30,562 nucleotides of DNA, from IMG/VR virus record IMGVR_UViG_3300032047_000080, positions 1-30,562 of that record; one strand, written 5' to 3'. The stretch comes from a virus. Shown here one piece after another: positions 6,987 to 24,753 of the stretch (its first letter is position 1; each line of letters starts with the position of its first letter). The translations under genes and the position numbers were made by a program. A model generated the notes under the pieces. The model ran no database searches and was not told the origin of the DNA. It saw only the letters and a program-made list of their open reading frames with translations.

Positions 6987-9511
6987 TAAATTGTTATTCC
7001 TCCAAAGTCGTTCTCGACGTAATCTTTAATTAGTCCGTCGAAATACTTATTGGTTTTGGTTTTTTTTACGTTATCTAAAATTATCTCGTTTATATCACCC
7101 TGTAAGTTCTGAAACTGGTTATTTGTCATACCTCTAAGATTAGGAAAGAATTGTAATACTTGTGTTCTTTCTGTATCAGATAGGTTAGTAAGTCTACGCC
7201 AGTCTTTATCAGCGTCAACTAATGCACCCATAATACTGTTACTTTTGTTGGCTTGTATTCTCATCAAACCAAACACTATAGCATTTTGAGTCTGCTCATC
7301 CATGACACCATCTACTCTTATACCACCAGACTCTACAACTTCTATAAGTTCTTCTGAGCTAATCTTAAACATACCGAAGTCAGTCGCACCAGCCTTAGCT
7401 TTTCTGTACGCATCTGCAACTGTCATTTCTTCTAGTTTGACTTTTGGTTTTGTAAATGGATTGCTGTTAGGATCTCTGTAGTAGTCTGCATTATCTGTAA
7501 CTTTTAGAGCATTAAGCATTTTAGCTTCTATCTCTGTATTATCATCGTTGTTAAGTAAGTTAAGATTCTTAGTCTGATTCTTACGTAGATACAAGAAACG
7601 CTGCTCTTCTTCTGTTAAATCAAAGAATGTTTCTGGGTTCTTCATATTGCTAGTGTCACCCGGGAACATAGCCTTAAATCTTGCAAGAGCATACTCATGT
7701 GGCATTACGTTTGTACCATGAGTTACACTTCTAAAGTATTGTGGAAATGGTGTTTTGAAACCACTTTCATAGTAATCATACAACTGATCTAACGCACGTT
7801 TCTCGTCAAGAGATACAAACTCTTTCTGATTCATTGTAGCATCAACTCCGTTGTCCTTTAAGAAAGTCTGATCGTTACGTATATCTATTGGTAATGTTGG
7901 CCTAGTAATATCAACTTGAGATGAATACTCTTTGTTTATCAACTTTTCTAAAATTTTTGGATACTCTAATTCTAGTGCAGCTTCAAGTGTTAAGTTTTGG
8001 TCGCCTGCCATACGTTCATTAACTTTTTGAGTTAGCTCATACTCAGCAGCTTTAACTTGTATATTTTTCTGTAAGCTAGTAAGCTCTATGTTTGGATCTC
8101 TAGCAGCTTGTCTTAACTTGTTGACATAATCTTTTCCTACATCTACAATGTCAAATATCTTGTTTGCCTTGCCTACCTGATTAGAGTATGATTCGTTACC
8201 TATACCAGAAGTTTCATCATTTAAAAAATGAGTTGGTAGAGGCAGTGATGAATCAAGACCTTTAGCTTTTAGTTCTTTACGATATCTAGTCTCTTCTTCA
8301 GCAAGAGCCATAGTAAACTCTTGGTCAGATAAACCTTGTAGTCGTAGCTGTCTTACTCTTTCTTGAGAATTTGTAACAACAGTTTTATATACCTTATCAT
8401 CAGCCAGAGCCATCTCACTTTGTACACGTGTAAGAAAACCCATGTTACCGTCTATCTCACCCGGGCTACCTATGCCAGAATTAGCGTAACCTTTAGATAC
8501 TTTTTTGGTAGATTTATTAGTAAACTCAGCTTCATTCATAAAATGACTAACACCACCAGACTCTAATCTATATCTTAGCTCGTACATACGTTCTATGATA
8601 TAATCTAAAGATTGTTTATCGTTAAGCCCTTTTTTAAGTCCAACAAGTTGAATCAAACCTGTATCTATGTTATCGTATACTCCATCGTAATCACCGTCTG
8701 CATTTTTAGAGTTAACAGTTTCGATGATAGCATTATCAACAAACTTATTATTTTGATTTATGTAGTTCTGGTCACTTATACGTTCCCATGTAGATAATAT
8801 CTTTTCTTTTTCTTTTACAAGAGCTGGGTATAAACGCTTGATAAAATGTCTACGAAGCTGTCTGCTTTGTACATTTAGTCCTTTAGAGTTTGCATCCATC
8901 AGATACTTAGTAACAATGTTTTCTATAGTATCATCAACAGCTTCACTAGCATCTAGTCTAGTTGGTAAGTTAAGAACATTCTTAGCTTGTATTCTACTTT
9001 TAAGAGCACTAGCTGCAAAGTCATCGTAGTCTTGTATAAAATCATCTGTATCTAAACCTTCGATAGTAGGTGCAAATCTTAACTTTAGAAAGTCATAGAC
9101 TTCTTCGTTATCGCCTGCTATCTCTCTTAACGCAGCTTCCTGTTCAGCTTCGTTCATATCAAGTTTCTTTTCTTGAAACTCTAGAAACTGATCCTGTTTC
9201 TCTTCGTATAATTTTTTAGCAAACTTAAGTGACTCACGTGCTTCTCTATTTCTTTCACGTGCTTCATTAGCCGCAGCAACATTCTTTACTAAACCACCTA
9301 GCGCGTTTAGATTGTCAAAAAAGTTTTGTGATTTAAGTGCTTCTATGTCGCCTAGTTCTTTGTAAAATCTTTCTAGGTCTTTTGCACTTTCGTCATTCGC
9401 TTTGTTGACGGCCTCTTCCATGTTAGCTTCGGTAGAGGCGTAGTTACTAATCGGTAGGTCAGGAATCCTGTCCCTTTCCGTACCGACTAGATTAGAAAAT
9501 GATGAGGTCAT
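6986..9511 (-). CDS. Internal virion protein, T7 gp15-like (841 aa)
   Basis: The 841-residue protein occupies the T7 gene 15 position (T7 gp15 is about 747 aa). It starts at ATG 9511 in an ATGA overlap with the gp14-like gene and ends in a TAATG overlap with the gp16-like gene. It is strongly helical, with dense Glu/Lys/Arg/Leu between about residues 40 and 140 giving clear coiled-coil character, and no hydrophobic membrane segment. In T7, gp15 forms the periplasmic tube of the ejected core together with gp14 and gp16. The assignment rests on order, size and composition. Confidence 0.8.
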   Translation of the reverse strand: MTSSFSNLVGTERDRIPDLPISNYASTEANMEEAVNKANDESAKDLERFYKELGDIEALKSQNFFDNLNALGGLVKNVAAANEARERNREARESLKFAKKLYEEKQDQFLEFQEKKLDMNEAEQEAALREIAGDNEEVYDFLKLRFAPTIEGLDTDDFIQDYDDFAASALKSRIQAKNVLNLPTRLDASEAVDDTIENIVTKYLMDANSKGLNVQSRQLRRHFIKRLYPALVKEKEKILSTWERISDQNYINQNNKFVDNAIIETVNSKNADGDYDGVYDNIDTGLIQLVGLKKGLNDKQSLDYIIERMYELRYRLESGGVSHFMNEAEFTNKSTKKVSKGYANSGIGSPGEIDGNMGFLTRVQSEMALADDKVYKTVVTNSQERVRQLRLQGLSDQEFTMALAEEETRYRKELKAKGLDSSLPLPTHFLNDETSGIGNESYSNQVGKANKIFDIVDVGKDYVNKLRQAARDPNIELTSLQKNIQVKAAEYELTQKVNERMAGDQNLTLEAALELEYPKILEKLINKEYSSQVDITRPTLPIDIRNDQTFLKDNGVDATMNQKEFVSLDEKRALDQLYDYYESGFKTPFPQYFRSVTHGTNVMPHEYALARFKAMFPGDTSNMKNPETFFDLTEEEQRFLYLRKNQTKNLNLLNNDDNTEIEAKMLNALKVTDNADYYRDPNSNPFTKPKVKLEEMTVADAYRKAKAGATDFGMFKISSEELIEVVESGGIRVDGVMDEQTQNAIVFGLMRIQANKSNSIMGALVDADKDWRRLTNLSDTERTQVLQFFPNLRGMTNNQFQNLQGDINEIILDNVKKTKTNKYFDGLIKDYVENDFGGITI

Positions 9512-10254
9512 ACGAGCTCCATATTAACGTCAATTTTACTGTAGTCTACAGTTAAGTAATTATCTCGTATACCTACAGCCATTGGATTTTTCTTGACAAC
9601 ATCTTGAGCCATAGCTCCACGCCATCTATCTTTAAATCCTTTATAGTTAAATTCATATATTTTGTAGCCATCAGGTGATACACCAACTTCTTCTATGTTT
9701 TCTTTTAGTTTTATATCAGAAGAAAAAGCACTGTATATACCAGCAACCTGACTAGCAATCTGTAGAGCACCGCCAAGTCTGTTGGTTGGAGGCATCATAA
9801 CTGGTGCACCATACTCTGGTCTGATACCTAGAGCTTCTCGTGCTGATGCTTGTTTAGCTTGGAATACACGTTTGATACCCTCTTGTGAGTATGCCATGTT
9901 TCGTCCAAATACATTCTGTACTGTAGCTTCAACATCTGCATTTTTCTGTAGTAATTCAAGATATCTTAGTTTACCAAATCGTCTACTACGACCACCTTCG
10001 TTTACAGGCATCTTAGTAAAGTATGCTTTAGCAGCATCTTCTACTTTTCTTCTACCCTTTCCTTGGGTAGCTAAAGCTTGAGCATAGGCATCACTCTGAT
10101 CTTTTGTGAGTCCTATGACATTGTTTTGTTGTGTTCTTTCTAAAGTAACTTCTCTGTTGAAAAACTTTAGAGCATCGGACTTATATCGGGCATCTTTAGC
10201 AGCAGCTTGTGCTCTAGCTTGTGCCCTTGCCCCTGCATTAGCGTCTACGCACAC
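9508..10254 (-). CDS. Internal virion protein, gp14-like, with C-terminal S74-type chaperone domain
   Basis: I favour the GTG start at 10254 (248 aa, MCVDANAGARAQ...). A TTG at 10266 would add four residues. The N-terminal 150 residues are Ala/Arg/Gln-rich helix, as in T7 gp14, the core protein that enters the outer membrane on ejection. From about residue 179 the sequence changes to SDIKLKENI, then a KIYEFNY strand, AMAQDV and YLTVDYSKIDV. This is the signature of the S74 intramolecular chaperone (autoproteolytic) domain usually found on tail spikes. Ser179 and Lys184 fit the S-x4-K dyad. It overlaps the gp13-like gene upstream by 17 bases and the gp15-like gene downstream (ATGA). Confidence 0.83.
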   Translation of the reverse strand: MCVDANAGARAQARAQAAAKDARYKSDALKFFNREVTLERTQQNNVIGLTKDQSDAYAQALATQGKGRRKVEDAAKAYFTKMPVNEGGRSRRFGKLRYLELLQKNADVEATVQNVFGRNMAYSQEGIKRVFQAKQASAREALGIRPEYGAPVMMPPTNRLGGALQIASQVAGIYSAFSSDIKLKENIEEVGVSPDGYKIYEFNYKGFKDRWRGAMAQDVVKKNPMAVGIRDNYLTVDYSKIDVNMELV

Positions 10255-10678
10255 GGCAAAATTCAATAAATGTTAGATTGTTTGGCCCATGGTTTAACTT
10301 ACGTAAAAACCTAAAGCCTAGAAACTTGAGCAGTTTTAAATGTGCTGTGTTTCTGATGTCAACTATATTCCAGAGGAGTGGCTCAGTACGGCTATCGACA
10401 TACCGCTTGGCCTCTCTTGCAAATGTAATTGGATATCGGTGTATTTCTGGAGTGCAAAGCATCCATATATCACCTTCTTCTCCTACCCCGGCCATGCCAG
10501 CAGTCTTGCCGTCAGGCACTGTAAAATACACGTAGGAGGGGTTGTGAGCCATAATAGAGGGTAAGAGGGCTGATGGTATCCCATGGCCTTCTTCGACCTC
10601 TCTACGGTCATCTGAGCGGAGATTAGAGGCAACCTGAGCGGCAGCCTCCAATGTAAGTGGGTGTATGTAATTAGACAC
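10238..10678 (-). CDS. T7 gp13-like virion morphogenesis protein (GNAT-like fold)
   Basis: I choose the GTG at 10678 (146 aa, MSNYIHPLTLEAAAQV...) because it overlaps the gp12 stop by only eight bases. A GTG at 10723 would add 15 residues inside gp12. The C-terminal half carries LLWNIVDIRNTAHLKLLKFL followed by a Phe-Ile-x-Phe strand, matching the WNYVWVGNTSHIRFLK region of T7 gp13 in order and spacing. That pattern is typical of phage acetyltransferase-like proteins. T7 gp13 is needed for proper core assembly but is scarcely present in mature virions. Its place between the tail nozzle and gp14 agrees. I would not claim acetyltransferase activity. Confidence 0.78.
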   Translation of the reverse strand: MSNYIHPLTLEAAAQVASNLRSDDRREVEEGHGIPSALLPSIMAHNPSYVYFTVPDGKTAGMAGVGEEGDIWMLCTPEIHRYPITFAREAKRYVDSRTEPLLWNIVDIRNTAHLKLLKFLGFRFLRKLNHGPNNLTFIEFCRVRRR

Positions 10679-14110: not shown

Positions 14111-15259
14111 TTAACCAAACGCTGTTGGCTTTGTTGCTGTGCCTGCGAATAATTCAACAGCAGCAGCTGGGTTTAAGAAGTCTGCACCCATAGCTAGACG
14201 ACCTAAGATTACGTCGCCTTGGTAAACCACGGATATGTCTCCGCTTGTTACCTGTACTTGAGGGCCGATTGCTTCTACAACAGCAGCAGCTTCCTTCTGG
14301 AAGATAAGTCCACAAGAGTTGTTGAACTTAGCCTGCTGACCGTAATCGTTTACGGTTACGTTGTGATCGTCACCCATTGCTTCTTCTACGAAGGAGCCTG
14401 AGTTTCCGGGGTCTGTTACACCGGGGTTTGTAGCAGATCCAGTACCATACTTAGTACCGAAGTTGCCAAAGAAAGGAATGTTCATTGACTTGTAGATGGT
14501 GATACCAGCTATTTCAATGATGCCTTGTCCAGACTGTAAAGCGTCTCCTCTCTCGTTACGGTTGATTAAGCCGTTTGTTTCTACGCCTTGGATAAGTTCG
14601 TAGTACTGTCTTGGGTTCAAGACTGCTACTCTTCCGTCACCAGAAACGCCTTTCTCATCTAGTGCAGCAGCTGCATCGTAGAAAGCATTGATTAGGTTGG
14701 AAGCGTTGTAAGCATCAGATGCGTTTGTAGTACCACCTACACGGATCTGTGTTCCACCGGGCTCAACAAAGTTAGTCTTTGTGATTGGGTGTGCTTTACG
14801 AGCTGATTTTGTAATCGCTCTAAAGATCTTTCTGTCATACTTCTCTGCTAGAGCATAACCGATCTTTCTTGAGATTTCTCCTCTCAAGTCATAGTGAGCT
14901 AGTGTTTCATCTAACTCATAGACAAATGCAGAACTGATGAGTAGGTCATCAACTGTCACTGTCTTTTCAGCTACTGGAGGTGCTCCATCGGAGTTACCTA
15001 GTATGCTGTTTCCGGGAGTATGATACTCGGCGGATGTTCTACCTGTGTAGATAAACTGAAGTGACTTACCAGAAGTAAGTGTTCTTTTCATTACAAGGTC
15101 GCGGGCTATAGTGTTTCTCTGGAAGCCTTTGAACATCTCACCTGAGAACAACTTTAAATAAAGGGCTCTCCTTTGGTCAGTTGTAGAAGCTGCACCATTA
15201 TTAGCACCCGGTACGGTTAAAGGAGCTAGTTGGCTAGATCCTGATTGTTGTTGTGCCAT
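14111..15259 (-). CDS. Major capsid protein, T7 gp10-like (382 aa)
   Basis: The frame is open from a TTG at 15373, but I place the start at ATG 15259 (MAQQQSGSSQLAPL...), which gives 382 residues, near the usual 345-400 for this family. Recognisable features are QRRALYLKLFSGEMFKGFQR near the N-terminus, the GKSLQFIYTGR strand, the DDLLISSAFVYELDE region, and the central RVAVLNPRQYYEL motif typical of the HK97-fold capsids of T7-like cyanophages. A terminator follows. I see no slippery heptamer near the stop that would give a T7-style frameshifted second form. Confidence 0.95.
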   Translation of the reverse strand: MAQQQSGSSQLAPLTVPGANNGAASTTDQRRALYLKLFSGEMFKGFQRNTIARDLVMKRTLTSGKSLQFIYTGRTSAEYHTPGNSILGNSDGAPPVAEKTVTVDDLLISSAFVYELDETLAHYDLRGEISRKIGYALAEKYDRKIFRAITKSARKAHPITKTNFVEPGGTQIRVGGTTNASDAYNASNLINAFYDAAAALDEKGVSGDGRVAVLNPRQYYELIQGVETNGLINRNERGDALQSGQGIIEIAGITIYKSMNIPFFGNFGTKYGTGSATNPGVTDPGNSGSFVEEAMGDDHNVTVNDYGQQAKFNNSCGLIFQKEAAAVVEAIGPQVQVTSGDISVVYQGDVILGRLAMGADFLNPAAAVELFAGTATKPTAFG

Positions 15260-15373: not shown

Positions 15374-15415
15374 TAGAGATGGGAGGACTTGAACCTCCCT
15401 GCACGGCCTTAACCG
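15374..15415 (-). other. tRNA-Leu-like 3' fragment (possible attP core or tRNA remnant)
   Basis: On the minus strand this stretch reads as the last part of a class II tRNA: a variable-arm-like CGGTTAAGGCCG, a T arm with 5-bp stem GGAGG/CCTCC around the exact T loop TTCAAGT, a 7-base acceptor strand CATCTCT and discriminator A. No D arm or anticodon arm is found upstream, where a small gene lies instead. Tyrosine-recombinase phages use such tRNA 3' ends as attP. From memory, the related phage P-SSP7 carries a 42-bp match to a Prochlorococcus tRNA-Leu gene. No integrase is in this window. Confidence 0.5.
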
Positions 15416-15462
15416 ATTACTCTTGTGTACTTGATGCCACGATATACGTAAGTTACAGTCAT
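15409..15462 (-). CDS. Tiny protein MTVTYVYRGIKYTRVIG (17 aa)
   Basis: ATG 15462 is preceded by GAGAG five bases upstream, a credible ribosome site. In-frame ATGs at 15474 and 15507 would extend the product to 21 or 32 residues. The TYVYRGIKY pattern resembles the short beta-strand proteins with a YRGxxY motif that are frequent in cyanobacteria and their phages (DUF4278-like, from memory). Its last bases overlap the tRNA-like element. It is the final gene of the microprotein cassette. Confidence 0.5.
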   Translation of the reverse strand: MTVTYVYRGIKYTRVIG

Positions 15463-15513
15463 TGTATCTCTCATATATCCAAGCCCCGTTCCATGCTTGG
15501 GTGTCATGCGTCT

Positions 15514-15783
15514 CTACTTGTTAATACGTAGAGATGAACGGACGGGTTTTTTCTTCCGTCTCGAATGATTATAATTAATCCTCTTACTACTTGTCTTAGT
15601 TCTGTTGAACTTGGCCTTCTCGCCCTTAGACATTTCACCTGTAGTCTTAGGTGTTTTGGATGACACACGTTTAGATGGTCTGCAAGCTGGGTAGCCTTTA
15701 CGCTTCTCACCTTTCTGTCTGCCACAGGGCTTACCAGTTTTGGTGTCAACCCATTTCTCTTGGAACCATCTACGTAAGCTCAT
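15514..15783 (-). CDS. Basic small protein with Cys pair (89 aa)
   Basis: The 89-residue, very Lys/Arg-rich protein starts MSLRRWFQEKWVDTKTGKPC. It has Cys at residues 20 and 34 (KPCGRQKGE and YPACRPS), then GEMSKGEKAKFNRTKT, and ends in RRKKKPVRSSLRINK. WFxEKWVD with a downstream PxCRPS is a pattern I recognise from small conserved proteins of cyanophages and large algal viruses, without a known function. The ATG overlaps the previous stop as ATGA. The composition suggests nucleic acid binding or packaging with DNA, which is inference. Confidence 0.75.
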   Translation of the reverse strand: MSLRRWFQEKWVDTKTGKPCGRQKGEKRKGYPACRPSKRVSSKTPKTTGEMSKGEKAKFNRTKTSSKRINYNHSRRKKKPVRSSLRINK

Positions 15784-15944
15784 CTTCTTTTTGCTTTGCT
15801 ATAACCGGGGGCAGTCTTCTTCTTACCACCAGCTTTGACTTGACCCTTACATACCTTAACACCGTAGGCGTTAGCGTATGCGGAAGGGTATACTTTAAAC
15901 TTTCTTTTGGCAGCTGCTTTACCTCTTGGACATAATTTACCCAT
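15780..15944 (-). CDS. Basic small protein MGKLCPRGKAAAKRKF... (54 aa)
   Basis: The frame from ATG 15944 to TGA 15780 encodes 54 residues. A Cys-Pro-Arg-Gly opening leads to AAKRKFKVYPSAYANAYGVK and then VCKG, ending in a Lys/Arg-rich tail. The KVYPSAYANAY stretch is a strikingly specific motif that I know from several small phage proteins without assigned function. The two Cys (residues 5 and 32) could bind metal. Junctions are TAATG upstream and ATGA downstream, which argues that it is a real gene. Confidence 0.72.
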   Translation of the reverse strand: MGKLCPRGKAAAKRKFKVYPSAYANAYGVKVCKGQVKAGGKKKTAPGYSKAKRR

Positions 15945-16000
15945 TAGCGTTTCTTACCTCCATGCTTGCAGCCACATTTAGATCCTTTCTTGTGTGCCAT
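15944..16000 (-). CDS. 18-residue Cys/His/Lys microprotein
   Basis: The sequence is MAHKKGSKCGCKHGGKKR. Support for coding is positional: its ATG overlaps the stop of the 68-residue gene (TAATG) and its stop overlaps the ATG of the next gene (TAATG), so it fills the slot exactly. Eight of 18 residues are Lys or Arg, and the CGC plus two His could bind a metal ion. I know of no characterised function. Confidence 0.6.
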   Translation of the reverse strand: MAHKKGSKCGCKHGGKKR

Positions 16001-16206
16001 TATGCTTTACCCTTTTTGTTTTTCTTTTTGTAATAGTCTATGACTTTCTTCTGGTCATTGACATCAAATGGGCCTTTACCATATAGTCTTTTACTAGCTT
16101 CCCTAACATCTTTAGGTACACCAAAGAACTCTTTGCCCATAGCAATAGCTTTTTTATCGCCTTTGCGTTTCTTTACAGAACCGTCTTCATTGTATGTGAT
16201 TGCCAT
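16000..16206 (-). CDS. Small basic protein, paralogue of the gene before it (68 aa)
   Basis: The 68-residue protein begins MAITYNEDGSVKKRKGDKK, nearly identical to the start of the 74-residue gene just upstream. The first 30 coding bases differ at two positions. The remainder differs: a helical middle with VREASKRLYGKGPFDVND and a Lys-rich tail. The pair looks like a duplication in which only the leader was kept, or a shared N-terminal tag on different bodies. TAATG junctions bound it on both sides. Confidence 0.75.
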   Translation of the reverse strand: MAITYNEDGSVKKRKGDKKAIAMGKEFFGVPKDVREASKRLYGKGPFDVNDQKKVIDYYKKKNKKGKA

Positions 16207-16430
16207 TATACTCCAAATTTACGTTGTTTCTTTAGTGTCTTAATACGGTAGTCCCGCATAGGGCCTGCGGGCGTGCTGTCCTTGATGAACTGTTTAAATT
16301 TTTTAAACTCTTTCTTAGACATAGGGCCAGTCTCACCAGATACACCTATAAAACTTTCAGCTAGTTTTACAGGCTTCTTGTTACCCCTACGAACCTTTTT
16401 AGATCCGTCTTCATTGTATGTTATTGCCAT
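16206..16430 (-). CDS. Small basic protein with MAITYNEDGS leader (74 aa)
   Basis: I choose ATG 16430, which overlaps the upstream stop as TGATG, over the ATG at 16442 inside the previous gene. The product is 74 residues. It has the MAITYNEDGSKKVRRGNKK leader shared with the next gene, then a helical segment (SKKEFKKFKQFIKDS), and RDYRIKTLKKQRKFGV at the end. It is strongly basic and has no Cys. Function unknown. Confidence 0.75.
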   Translation of the reverse strand: MAITYNEDGSKKVRRGNKKPVKLAESFIGVSGETGPMSKKEFKKFKQFIKDSTPAGPMRDYRIKTLKKQRKFGV

Positions 16431-16678
16431 CAGCATTTCCATCTACGTAAGGCAAGTGCCTTTCTTGTGGGCTTGCCGTTTGGTTTTTTGAGTGGGCCTT
16501 TCATGCCAGACATGCGAGCACAGAAAGACCTTTTACGAGCTCCTCCTCCGGGCTGAGGGGCTTTGAGATTAGAGCCAGTAGCACGATTGTACTTGGCTCT
16601 TCCCTTAGCTGTTAGGCCGCCTTTGCGGCTCTTCTCACCTCTTCCGAGAGACAGGCTTACTCCCTTTTTTCTTGCCAT
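16430..16678 (-). CDS. Basic small protein SLSLGRGEKS... (82 aa)
   Basis: The 82-residue protein has a conserved-looking core: SLSLGRGEKSRKGGLTAKGR, then AKYNRATGSNLKAPQP, a Gly-rich turn, RKRSFCARMSGMKGP, and RKALALRRWKC at the end. I recognise this arrangement from cyanophage and other marine-phage small proteins (DUF6321-like, from memory). Net charge is very high. The Cys in SFCARM and the C-terminal Cys could pair or bind metal. It overlaps the upstream gene by 44 bases in another frame. Confidence 0.78.
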   Translation of the reverse strand: MARKKGVSLSLGRGEKSRKGGLTAKGRAKYNRATGSNLKAPQPGGGARKRSFCARMSGMKGPLKKPNGKPTRKALALRRWKC

Positions 16679-16784
16679 TTTTTCTTAGTGCTGCGAAGTC
16701 TGCCCCTGTGATCTTGTTGCGAGGTGGTGCAACACGTGCGATCTTTTTCTGACCGGGGCTATAGCCACCTTTACCTTTTGGCAT
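16635..16784 (-). CDS. Basic small protein MPKGKGGYSPGQKK... (49 aa)
   Basis: Starting at ATG 16784, which overlaps the hli stop (TAATG), it encodes 49 residues. There is a YSPGQKKIARVAPPR segment, then KITGADFAALRKNGKKKG and a basic tail. The GQKKIA...ITGADFxxLR pattern recurs in small cyanophage proteins of unknown function, from memory. An upstream in-frame start at 16817 would lie inside hli and is less likely. Confidence 0.72.
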   Translation of the reverse strand: MPKGKGGYSPGQKKIARVAPPRNKITGADFAALRKNGKKKGSKPVSRKR

Positions 16785-16918
16785 TACCAGATTCCGGGTA
16801 TGATTTGCCCTGTCCAAGCGTAGTTAAGTAGAGCTGCAACTATGCCTATCATAGCTAGTCTTCCGTTAAGCTCCTCTGCTGGATGCCATTTTTGATTTTC
16901 GTGGTTGTGGTGTGTCAT
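16784..16918 (-). CDS. hli: High-light-inducible protein (44 aa)
   Basis: This short gene encodes a 44-residue protein. A polar His-rich N-terminus leads into AEELNGRLAMIGIVAALLNY and then TGQIIPGIW. That is the full signature of high-light-inducible proteins: the chlorophyll-binding E-x-x-N-x-R motif (Glu15, Asn18, Arg20), one transmembrane helix, and the conserved TGQIIPGIW tail. HLIPs sit in the thylakoid membrane and protect photosystem II assembly by binding pigment and dissipating energy. In cyanophages hli is a host-derived auxiliary gene that helps keep photosynthesis running during infection. It lies two bases after the 60-residue gene and shares a TAATG junction with the next. No psbA accompanies it here. 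Confidence 0.93.
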   Translation of the reverse strand: MTHHNHENQKWHPAEELNGRLAMIGIVAALLNYAWTGQIIPGIW

Positions 16919-16920
16919 TG

Positions 16921-17103
16921 TTATACTACGTTGTTGTTATCTTTTGATAAGAAGTCTTGCTTCTTCTTGTTGTTTTTTGCTAGAGGATAGATCAGCCCCG
17001 GTATTGGGAGCTGTCTAATATACTCTTTCTTCTCTGGCTTGAACTCATCAAGTGGAGAACGTGGGTCAGAGGTAGGTTTTTTCTTTCCTTTCTTCTTGAC
17101 CAT
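16921..17103 (-). CDS. Small Lys/Pro-rich protein (60 aa)
   Basis: The 60-residue product begins MVKKKGKKKPTSDPRSPLDE, has a middle IRQLPIPGLIYPLAKNNKKK and a polar Asn-rich end. The PIPGLIYPLA stretch is the only hydrophobic part and is too short and Pro-rich for a sure membrane helix. The ATG overlaps the preceding stop (TAATG) and hli begins two bases after its stop. I do not recognise the family. Confidence 0.65.
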   Translation of the reverse strand: MVKKKGKKKPTSDPRSPLDEFKPEKKEYIRQLPIPGLIYPLAKNNKKKQDFLSKDNNNVV

Positions 17104-17201
17104 TACTTTTTCTTCTTAAGTTTAGCAAGCATCTTTTTCTTTTCTGCTGCTGTCATTTTTTTCTTGCCTTTTGGCATAGCTTTTCCGTAATGTCCGGGCA
17201 T
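17103..17201 (-). CDS. Lysine-rich microprotein (32 aa)
   Basis: The 32-residue frame starts at ATG 17201, two bases after the scaffold stop. It reads MPGHYGKAMPKGKKKMTAAE and then a KKKMLAKLKKKK tail, with 14 Lys in total. The second half is a basic amphipathic helix. Similar Lys-rich mini-genes lie near capsid genes in other marine T7-like phages, from memory. The coding call rests on the tight junctions on both sides. Confidence 0.6.
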   Translation of the reverse strand: MPGHYGKAMPKGKKKMTAAEKKKMLAKLKKKK

Positions 17202-17203
17202 AG

Positions 17204-18007
17204 TTAGAACTCCAAATCTGATCTGTCTAGTTTTTCGATAACATCTTGCCTGTAGGCAGGGTCGTTATCATACCTTGCATCTGACATAGCACGGACAAGT
17301 TCCGCTTGGCTACGAAAGACATCCCCATTGTTAGGGGCGGTTTTACCTGTTACCATTCTACCTTCAACTCCATTTGCGTTATCGTACTCAGCTTTCAATC
17401 CAGACACAGCTAGTTGTATAGCTTGTACGCTGCCTGTATTGACTACCTCATCAAACGCATTTATCTGATCTTGTGGTAGACTGTTCTTTGCCCAGTTTAC
17501 TATATTAGCATAGGCTTTCTCGCCGCCTGCTGCGTTCTTGATCTGGTTGATCTGTGACGCAGTGATCTCAGCTGCTGGTGCTGCCTGTTGTTGTTGAAAC
17601 TCAGGGTTCTGTGACACCTCCATGTAGGCTTTGATAAGATCTTGGCTAGATAAAGAAGAGAACTTAGCAAGAGTCTCTGGTGATAATTTATTACCATTAT
17701 CAAAGTATTCTTTGCTAGCATCTGTAATCAGTGTAGCACCATCAGATAGCTGTGGCTTATCTTCGGGCTCTGGTTCTGCACTGGCTTGGTCTGTGTTTTC
17801 TTCTTCTTTGCTTTCGCCAAGTTTTTTCTGTAGCTCTACGTATGCTTTTTCTAGTTCTTCTGCACTTTTATATTTACCAGCCAGTAGTCCTTCTTGTTCT
17901 GCCTGTAGCTTTTCACCAACGGCAAGGCTATCTTGCTCCTCTGGTGTGAGGTTATCAGGTGCACTTTCAGTTTGTACCTCTGGCTGATATGATAATGTTT
18001 CTGACAT
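17204..18007 (-). CDS. Capsid scaffolding protein, T7 gp9-like (267 aa)
   Basis: The acidic, Glu/Gln/Ala-rich 267-residue protein sits directly after the portal, as in T7 (gp9, about 307 aa). The first 100 residues are very rich in Glu with a helix-heavy KYKSAEELEKAYVELQKKLG motif, which recurs in this scaffold family. A long Gln/Ala-rich central part follows and the C-terminus is basic/acidic helix (AYRQDVIEKLDRSDLEF). Scaffolds direct assembly of the procapsid from capsid protein and are then expelled. It is separated from the capsid gene by the microprotein cassette, unlike T7 where gene 10 follows directly. Confidence 0.9.
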   Translation of the reverse strand: MSETLSYQPEVQTESAPDNLTPEEQDSLAVGEKLQAEQEGLLAGKYKSAEELEKAYVELQKKLGESKEEENTDQASAEPEPEDKPQLSDGATLITDASKEYFDNGNKLSPETLAKFSSLSSQDLIKAYMEVSQNPEFQQQQAAPAAEITASQINQIKNAAGGEKAYANIVNWAKNSLPQDQINAFDEVVNTGSVQAIQLAVSGLKAEYDNANGVEGRMVTGKTAPNNGDVFRSQAELVRAMSDARYDNDPAYRQDVIEKLDRSDLEF

Positions 18008-22987: not shown

Positions 22988-24250
22988 TTAGTGTACGTCA
23001 GCCCAAGTATATCCGATCTTAGCTTCTGCTGCGATGGGACATCTTAGATTGTAATGTTCGCCTGCCAATCTGGCGGCTGTTTCGAGCCATTTTGCAAATT
23101 CTTCTGCAAATCTTGGATAACATTCGTAGTTTAGCTCGTCATGTACGAATGAGAGTTGATGTCCGTCGGGTGGTAGACATTCATTCACAATCACCATCCA
23201 TCTTTTGGCGATCGTCGCTGCGCTTCCCTGTAGGAGGTAATTGAGAAACTTATGCCCTTTGTCAACGCTGATACGCCTGCCGTCGATGGCGTTTGCATAA
23301 CCACGTTTACTAGCTTTTTCACAAGCGAGTAGCAGATCTGCAAGACCCGGAATGGCAGCAATATAAGCCTTACGAATCTCTGCCCCTTTGACAGCAGCGG
23401 CTTTTTCGGACAATAACTTATCATAGCTGTATCCTAGTTTCGTATTACCGGCTCCATAAAGGAAGGCATAGGTAACGGTTTTAACTTGTCGACGGGTGAT
23501 CCCAATTTTGTCGGCATTGGTTTGGTGAATATCCCCCGTAGTAAGTATTCGTTGATACCGGCCATTATCATACCTCGAAAGGTAATGAGCAAGCATACGG
23601 AGCTCAATCCCACTAAGATCGGCAGACACCATTTGATAGGTAGGCGTGGCCCGGAATAATTTTCTGAATCTTTCATCTGATGGTACTTGTGCTAAGTTTG
23701 GTTTTCTGTGTGCACATCTGAATGTGCTGGTTGCAACCCCGCAGTGGTGGTGAATACGATTACACGTCGTAGATAGCTTCTGCCATGCGTTCACGCCTTC
23801 CGAGATCATCCCCAATTTCTTGGTAATATCTAGACATTTCAGAAACAAGAGGGCTGTCTCCGACCCAATATCTTTCAATACTGTCTCGTCTACGACCGGC
23901 TTGCCTGTGGCCGTTCTCTGTGTTGGTTTCCAATTTTCGTGGGTCTGTAGTATCCATGCTATGTGGTCTCGTGAGGTGGGGTTAAGTTGTTTAAGTTTTG
24001 TAAATGGGCATCCTTGTACGTACCCTTGTGGCCTGTTATTTCGCTTAGGTGTAAACACTGCTCCAGCAACGAACCCGAATTTTGTGCGTAATATATTTGT
24101 AGCTTCTTCCAGTTCTCCTCTGAGAGCTGACTCGAGCTCGTAGGCTGCTCGTTCGTCGAAATACCATCCATGTTCTTCTTGTTTTTGTAAGATGTGTGCG
24201 ACCTGATGTTCTAGTTGTACCCAGTCAGGTAAGGGTGGAAATGTTGGCAT
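22988..24250 (-). CDS. DNA polymerase, polymerase domain (separate ORF, 420 aa)
   Basis: This family A palm-fingers-thumb domain lacks its own exonuclease. The N-terminal DWVQLEHQVAHILQKQEEHGWYFD matches the start of the polymerase half of T7 gp5. Motif A has D211 and E216 (SADLSGIELRML), motif B has R253, K257, Tyr261 and Y265-G266, and motif C is H370-D371-E372. The position equivalent to E. coli Phe762 is Tyr, as in T7. It starts at ATG 24250, 40 bases inside the exonuclease-domain ORF and in the -1 frame relative to it. It is either a genuinely split polymerase with translational coupling, or a frameshifted single gene. All catalytic residues are intact. Confidence 0.92.
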   Translation of the reverse strand: MPTFPPLPDWVQLEHQVAHILQKQEEHGWYFDERAAYELESALRGELEEATNILRTKFGFVAGAVFTPKRNNRPQGYVQGCPFTKLKQLNPTSRDHIAWILQTHENWKPTQRTATGKPVVDETVLKDIGSETALLFLKCLDITKKLGMISEGVNAWQKLSTTCNRIHHHCGVATSTFRCAHRKPNLAQVPSDERFRKLFRATPTYQMVSADLSGIELRMLAHYLSRYDNGRYQRILTTGDIHQTNADKIGITRRQVKTVTYAFLYGAGNTKLGYSYDKLLSEKAAAVKGAEIRKAYIAAIPGLADLLLACEKASKRGYANAIDGRRISVDKGHKFLNYLLQGSAATIAKRWMVIVNECLPPDGHQLSFVHDELNYECYPRFAEEFAKWLETAARLAGEHYNLRCPIAAEAKIGYTWADVH

Positions 24251-24753
24251 AGTTTATTTGTAACAATAACGTCTTGTTCGCAATAGTCCTCCATCTCTTT
24301 GCTCCATGCTGACCAGTCGGCAGTCTGTCCAAAGTTCCCTTTGTATTCTCCCAACCTGTGGCCATAGGACTCCAAAGAGTGGCGACCATAGAGTTTTGGT
24401 GGCATACCGTCAATCCTTGCCTTGCGGTCTACCTCTAGCATATCGGGGTGGTACAACCTCGACAGCAGTAGTGTGTCTATAACTCTACCCTTCGGTTCAA
24501 AGAATGGGTAGACTTTCTTTATCATCGGTATGTCAAAGCCAATGATGTTGTGGCCAATGATCGTGTCAGCATCCATAAGATACGTAACACCTCTGCTGAT
24601 TGGCTGTGCAGATCCTGTGTCATTGTATCTGGTAGTCTCACCTGTCTCATAGTCAAGTGTAACTAAGCAGTGCAGCTCAACGTCCTCTTGACTTAGAGGT
24701 GTTGTTTCCAGATCGAACAGGAGGGTAATAGGTCTTGTCTCTGAATTTTGCAC
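24211..24753 (-). CDS. DNA polymerase 3'-5' exonuclease (proofreading) domain, separate ORF (180 aa)
   Basis: The 180-residue protein carries all three DEDDy exonuclease motifs: Exo I D14-x-E16 (LLFDLETTPL), Exo II D74 (GHNIIGFDIPMI), and Exo III Y157-x3-D161 (DYCEQDVIVT), the last almost as in T7 gp5. It lacks any polymerase sequence because the frame stops after LTGYN. The polymerase domain continues in another frame from within its last 40 bases. The likely start is GTG 24753. As a stand-alone protein it would have to join the polymerase ORF product to proofread. It follows the primase-helicase with a 32-base gap. Confidence 0.88.
   Translation of the reverse strand: MQNSETRPITLLFDLETTPLSQEDVELHCLVTLDYETGETTRYNDTGSAQPISRGVTYLMDADTIIGHNIIGFDIPMIKKVYPFFEPKGRVIDTLLLSRLYHPDMLEVDRKARIDGMPPKLYGRHSLESYGHRLGEYKGNFGQTADWSAWSKEMEDYCEQDVIVTNKLCQHFHPYLTGYN

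Follow-up and report, generated by a model that had tools for sequence, protein, structure and literature searches.

The stretch of DNA analysed here, referred to as the window, comprises positions 1-30,562 (30,562 nucleotides) of the IMG/VR virus record IMGVR_UViG_3300032047_000080, and all coordinates are window positions. The phage is T7-like, marine and infects cyanobacteria. The region of interest is bounded upstream by the capsid assembly scaffold gene (17204..18007; tblastn to the P-SSP7 gp9 region, 53% identity) and downstream by the major capsid protein (MCP) gene (14111..15259; PDB 2xd8, E 5e-160). These genes, and all features between them, are encoded on the minus strand. The interval contains ten small open reading frames (ORFs) of 18-89 residues, g1 to g10, running from 17201 to 15514, and an adjoining Glutamine-II riboswitch that is followed by a 17-residue peptide, here termed the YRG peptide. 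A hairpin and a second structured RNA, element B, separate the peptide from the capsid gene.

The riboswitch, which was overlooked in the original prediction for this locus, is an Rfam RF01704 match at 15543-15478 with a score of 45 bits against a cut-off of 33. The aptamer strand definitions and numbering were taken from the crystal-structure paper (PMC6698751). The strands forming the ligand site and pseudoknot, CGUUCA, CGCA and AUGGAACGGG, are present in the window and are invariant in a 38-sequence alignment of relatives. The P1 and P2 helices are paired in 98.5% of cells compared with 82.7% in shuffles, and nine helix pairs have changed on both sides; 0 of 500 shuffles scored as high. The riboswitch occurs once in each of 47 of the 50 records of relatives, with 44 scoring above the cut-off, and it is also present in S-RIP1, S-TIP37, S-CBP4 and MedDCM-S28-C3. 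In P-SSP7 and its relatives, riboswitch and peptide lie unannotated between psbA and the capsid gene. A position-independent pattern scan of viral contigs returned 119 loci, 117 of which have the scaffold gene or psbA upstream or the MCP gene downstream. Two T4-like cyanophages gave RF01704 matches under the cut-off, followed by proteins with two YRG motifs. Tests of records from MPP-A (Syn5 and P60), MPP-C (P-SCSP2) and the pelagiphages (HTVC031P) did not find the riboswitch. No other element of the scaffold-capsid interval is conserved as strongly as the riboswitch. Separately, two Prochlorococcus single-cell genomes (L132 and L136) were seen to contain cyanopodovirus contigs with psbA, riboswitch, peptide and MCP gene.

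The peptide MTVTYVYRGIKYTRVIG (15409..15462, including the stop codon) starts 15 nt downstream of the aptamer and is preceded by a Shine-Dalgarno-like GAGAG (15468..15472), identified by direct reading; most relatives have a similar Shine-Dalgarno-like sequence. An ORF with the pattern Y-R-G-x-x-Y follows 131 of 132 riboswitch elements, with the Y, R, G and Y each at 100%. The codons of the YRG residues vary (TAT/TAC; CGT/CGC/CGG/CGA/AGA; GGC/GGT/GGA/GGG), and such an ORF appeared in 0 of 2640 mononucleotide-shuffled downstream sequences. Among the relatives tabulated, most phage ORFs have 13-38 residues and a single motif; the longer frame in S-RIP2 is annotation-dependent. An alternative 32-residue form of this gene was considered and rejected: it starts inside the RF01704 aptamer, its frame is open only in close relatives and closed in most others, and a Pfam search with it gave no match.

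The same riboswitch is widespread in Prochlorococcus, being present in all 21 genomes searched with RF01704, at 2-8 copies each. Inspection of 29 host loci revealed proteins of 33-58 residues with one to three YRG motifs. The RF01704 search of Prochlorococcus replaced an attempt to locate host elements in genome contigs through the phage-type pattern, which gave mostly chance matches, together with two phage contigs within Prochlorococcus single-cell genomes. From its sequence, the phage peptide can be said to carry the C-terminal YRGxxY motif of DUF4278 (PF14105), but it is not classed as a member of that family. Four of seven longer phage peptides match DUF4278 at E 0.003-0.04, and these matches extend to the last profile position (57 of 57).

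In the window, g10 extends 27 nt into the aptamer. An overlap of 15-27 nt, measured from the start of CGUUCA, is present there and at nine other loci (L030 and L203 being the same contig), where the g10 coding sequence takes in the first pseudoknot strand together with the 5′ P1 arm. It has been reported that published MPP-B phages all carry psbA (PMC4646655). Neither the window nor, in the stretches examined, L011 and the checked overlap loci L003, L030, L035 and L061 yielded this gene, whereas L065 and L076 have it between g10 and the riboswitch. A ribosome completing g10 would cover the ligand site. In the psbA-lacking branch, ribosomes on g10 would cross the ligand-binding strand of the aptamer, and the translation of g10 should therefore interfere with the switch, as judged from the anatomy.

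The original prediction described a cassette of eleven overlapping microgenes. Ten of these form the chain g1-g10, which is genuine; the last, "gene 11", lies outside it, as its 17-residue form, the YRG peptide, begins 51 nt past the g10 stop. Successive genes are joined by TAATG at g1/g2, g3/g4, g6/g7, g7/g8 and g8/g9, by TGATG at g5/g6 and by ATGA at g9/g10, the exceptions being a 2-nt gap at g2/g3 and a 44-nt overlap at g4/g5. Where a strict chain is defined by a start within -4..+3 nt of the preceding stop, the longest contains six genes, compared with a maximum of three in 1000 first-order resamplings of the region. The stop/start junction of g5, TGGAAATGCTGATGG, is preserved in relatives even when a different gene follows, which is inferred from MEMLM/MLM read-throughs. 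The tight coupling that had been proposed is thereby supported. The same holds for composition: nine of the ten genes are rich in Lys and Arg (26-41%), Cys pairs occur in g5, g8, g9 and g10, and the net charge of the microgene products ranges from +9 to +25. Purifying selection, the absence of which had been named beforehand as refuting the proposal, was measured by NG86 counts of non-synonymous (Nd) and synonymous (Sd) differences against relatives. Most of the genes show it, clearly so in seven of the ten (g3, g4, g5, g7, g8, g9 and g10).

Individual genes differ in how far they can be traced. The first, g1 (17103..17201; 32 residues, 41% Lys+Arg), has homologs in L003, L011 and L065 with few informative sites, and g2 (16921..17103; 60 residues) is the weakest of the ten, with no homolog found among the relatives compared. 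The product of g3 (16784..16918; 44 residues) is a high-light-inducible (Hli) protein, with a phrog_178 match at E 1.6e-17, a Pfam PF00504 match under its cut-off, and counts of Nd 0 and Sd 3-6. A homolog of the basic 49-residue g4 product (16635..16784) is found in pelagiphage HTVC106P. The 82-residue product of g5 (16430..16678) belongs to DUF6321 (PF19846; E 8.4e-25, 87.6 bits against a cut-off of 28.5), with a ratio of non-synonymous to synonymous rates (dN/dS) of 0.02-0.17 and counts of Nd 1 with Sd 10 and 17. The products of g6 (16206..16430; 74 residues) and g7 (16000..16206; 68 residues) have the N-terminus MAITYNEDGS in common; g6 is matched in relatives by this N-terminus only, to g7-like genes, and g7 has a dN/dS of 0.09-0.12 against three relatives. 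Merely 18 residues long, g8 (15944..16000), MAHKKGSKCGCKHGGKKR, has homologs at 18 loci and counts of Nd 0 with Sd 2 and 3. The 54-residue g9 product (15780..15944; Nd 1 with Sd 7 and 9) is assigned to phrog_27331 by a PHROGs profile match. The last gene, g10 (15514..15783; 89 residues), the 3′ codons of which lie within the aptamer, encodes a DUF5872 protein (PF19197; E 6.7e-14, 52.9 bits against a cut-off of 27.5).

Related phages keep hli and psbA at the scaffold-capsid site too, and its gene content is variable. The genes g1-g10 are best regarded as a translationally coupled, modular and exchangeable set of small accessory genes. The original prediction that they are produced in a fixed ratio with the capsid is not supported, as gene content varies freely, psbA occupies the same interval in relatives, and riboswitch, peptide and the separate leader RNA of the MCP gene stand between that gene and the chain. 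Direct coupling to the capsid gene fails as well, since the aptamer, the peptide, the hairpin and the element B leader intervene.

Element B (15372-15315) is a structured RNA of the MCP leader, recognized through an alignment and a census of its stems. It comprises two covarying hairpins, one with UACG-like loops and over a dozen stem variants, the other with a GAUAGA loop and stems such as GUGG/CCAC, GUAGG/CCUAC, GUGUG/CACAC, GCUG/CAGC and GACUG/CAGUC. One strong match was obtained in 16 of 17 records, with secondary matches at E 0.04 or weaker, and the element is present in four further MPP-B-type records. A search of Rfam gave no match. A role as a dispersed phage promoter was rejected, given its single copy. 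Element B is a second conserved structured RNA, previously undescribed, that leads the capsid gene. Between it and the peptide lies the hairpin with a T-loop-like loop (15381..15399). This hairpin is all that remains of a candidate tRNA before the MCP gene (15381-15473), which was rejected as ARAGORN reported 0 genes in the window. In two relatives, NATL1A-7 and L036, a tRNA-Gly (tcc) does follow the peptide, a short way upstream of element B (L002 3746-3816; L036 2390-2462). A 16-residue ORF, MAKKISDLRNVNQYHS in L003, was also observed immediately 5′ of the MCP gene (L003 3351-3401; L011 3506-3556); a shorter A run disrupts its frame in the window.

The interval is thus best read as a coupled chain of accessory genes, g1-g10, with an adjoining riboswitch through which glutamine would turn on production of a minimal mimic of a host nitrogen-status protein, a reading to which a probability of roughly 0.7 is given. 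The reading draws on the homology and covariation of the riboswitch, the coding conservation of the peptide, the position of both, the host paralogues and the g10 overlap. High free glutamine would stabilize the aptamer pseudoknot and so release the translation of MTVTYVYRGIKYTRVIG. This ON direction is proposed because host type-2 switches activate with glutamine. The peptide may be regarded as a one-motif version of the LTYRGxxY proteins found behind the same riboswitch in Prochlorococcus, and most likely shares their target in the host. This target probably lies in the control of nitrogen assimilation, the best guess because the same motif follows the same switch in the host. An effect on infection is presumed as well. 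The capsid gene has a structured leader to itself, element B. A more elaborate scheme envisages a glutamine checkpoint in the MPP-B late region, in which the peptide competes with the multi-motif YRG proteins of the host and sustains nitrogen assimilation for virion protein synthesis, g10 ribosomes tune the switch in the psbA-lacking branch, and element B separately controls capsid output. Taken as a whole, this scheme is speculative and unlikely.

A number of observations weigh against the glutamine-controlled mimic. No riboswitch match was obtained for L011 and L058 in the RF01704 search of relatives. The sequences in the covariation alignment window share ancestry, and the significance derived from the shuffles is therefore overstated. 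The matches of the phage peptides to DUF4278 remain under the cut-off, the best reaching 18.3 against 25.3 bits. The aptamer 5′ strand pairs with the linker no more strongly than with shuffled versions of it (-4.54 versus -4.47 kcal/mol), and a conserved expression platform of Shine-Dalgarno and anti-Shine-Dalgarno pairing with that strand was rejected on this ground. Finally, L061 retains the aptamer and has lost the peptide, so that element B and the MCP gene follow directly on the aptamer. This last arrangement, together with the constant location of the element upstream of the MCP gene, would suit a riboswitch that mainly controls the capsid and other late genes downstream, with the peptide as a coupled leader. 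Such a role is improbable, as the distance from riboswitch to MCP gene ranges from 103 to 1375 nt, annotated genes intervene in NATL1A-7 and P-SSP10, and the MCP gene has a structured leader of its own. What is conserved is the amino acids of the peptide and not the distance to the MCP gene, and the riboswitch has the peptide, not the capsid gene, as its conserved partner. It could also be argued from the many copies in host genomes, and from the use of the interval as an accessory-gene site, that riboswitch and peptide derive from host DNA that came in with psbA and hli and now persist as a neutral relic. This is very hard to reconcile with their retention in psbA-lacking relatives, with compensatory changes in P1 and an invariant ligand site, or with the synonymous variation of the peptide codons, and it is considered highly improbable.

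The function of the microgenes is a separate matter, and the proposal that they are produced for the virion, as minor components or as proteins associated with DNA, draws on comparative data. DUF6321 is found in 416 phage records, mainly of marine cyanophages with some pelagiphages, and in Pelagivirus HTVC031P and P-SCSP2 it likewise lies between scaffold and capsid. Cyanomyoviruses have it C-terminally, or close to that end, in T4-GC119 and other proteins encoded beside the terminase genes. Three of these DUF6321 proteins contain a DUF5872-like stretch (g10 profile, E about 5e-7 in a 14-protein set) and two a weak g9-like WPSAYA motif. T4-GC119, a fusion of DUF6321 and a DUF5872-like stretch, is labelled "structural protein" in S-B43, and the DUF6321-bearing proteins of S-P4 and RB11-B are labelled structural too; these annotations were not traced to a proteomics table. 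The positive charge of the microgene products agrees with a DNA-associated role. Against it, a PDB profile search gave no match for g5 or g9, although the P-SCSP1u capsid is deposited and its close relatives carry DUF6321; this absence is compatible with disordered or few-copy proteins. The only match for g10 was a weak one to a ribosomal protein, and no credible solved relative of g5, g9 or g10 emerged. Predicted structures were of low confidence (mean pLDDT 68 for g5 and 58 for g10), and a Foldseek search with the g5 model found no match. As an account of the whole set, a virion role is possible if doubtful. Of the earlier suggestion of minor virion proteins, an indirect case survives for g5 and g10, for which alone a virion-related role appears possible from sequence comparison, and g3, being an Hli protein, is no virion candidate.

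Alternatively, the microgenes may be small basic host-takeover proteins that act on the nucleic-acid machinery of the host. Their size and basicity would fit, as would their shuffling among unrelated marine phages: in pelagiphage HTVC106P, which is annotated with repressor genes and is not placed among the T7-like phages, g4-, g9- and g10-like microgenes stand close together (L338 2540-3407) near a peptidase M15 gene. The late-gene position does not favour such a function, and no known inhibitor family was matched in Pfam, PHROGs or NCBIfam, making takeover a tentative suggestion for these genes.

Cyanopodoviruses are abundant marine viruses, and even in the model phage P-SSP7 the riboswitch and peptide are unannotated. 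The system offers a direct route to asking whether phages read the nitrogen status of the host during infection. It also offers a natural one-motif variant for studying DUF4278-like proteins behind the same riboswitch in marine picocyanobacteria, and element B is a second regulatory RNA candidate for characterization. The microgenes illustrate that genes of 18-89 codons, often overlooked in annotation, can be strongly constrained. Elsewhere in the window, the DNA polymerase is seemingly split, by eye, into a 420-residue polymerase ORF (22988-24250) and a 180-residue exonuclease ORF (24211-24753) that overlap in different frames. In a 252-residue ORF (9508-10266), the segment SSDIKLKENIEEVGVSPDGYKIYEFNYKG may represent an intramolecular chaperone (peptidase S74) domain, given its resemblance to one.

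The Glutamine-II or Downstream-peptide motif class is known with short ORFs of 17-100 residues (RF01704; Weinberg 2010, PMC2864571), and according to structural work on the aptamer, the ribosome binding site should be freed (PMC6698751). The phage element shares with this class the aptamer, the invariant ligand strands and the short ORF that comes next. It differs in lying among the late structural genes of a T7-like phage, in its one-motif peptide of 13-38 residues and, in the branch of the window phage, in that the aptamer 5′ half belongs to the coding region of the gene upstream. In the host, type-2 switches respond to glutamine by turning on the genes behind them, which are DUF4278 genes (PMC6316151). 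These PMM1846-like genes have the same type of riboswitch and the shared motif L/T-x-YRG-x-x-Y, but the host loci encode 33-58 residues with 1-3 motifs, whereas the phage peptides have one motif and fall under the DUF4278 cut-off. Other marine phages likewise carry glutamine riboswitches, with earlier records from T4-like cyanophages, pelagiphages and an OM43 phage (PMC9964418, PMC9602691, PMC9004378). A literature search found no report of this riboswitch in T7-like cyanophages, although the original glutamine riboswitch, S-SBP1 transcriptome and aptamer biochemistry papers were outside its coverage and an earlier mention is possible. The Melnitz riboswitch is described with a tmRNA and as glnA-like, whereas in the podoviruses the element lies in the capsid interval, is followed by a YRG peptide and is present in nearly all MPP-B-type records checked. 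A parallel for the microgenes is provided by the T4-GC119 proteins, which share DUF6321 with g5, in three cases a DUF5872-like stretch with g10, and in two a weak motif with g9. There, these parts are combined in a single large protein near gp16/gp17, whereas the window phage carries them as separate microgenes.

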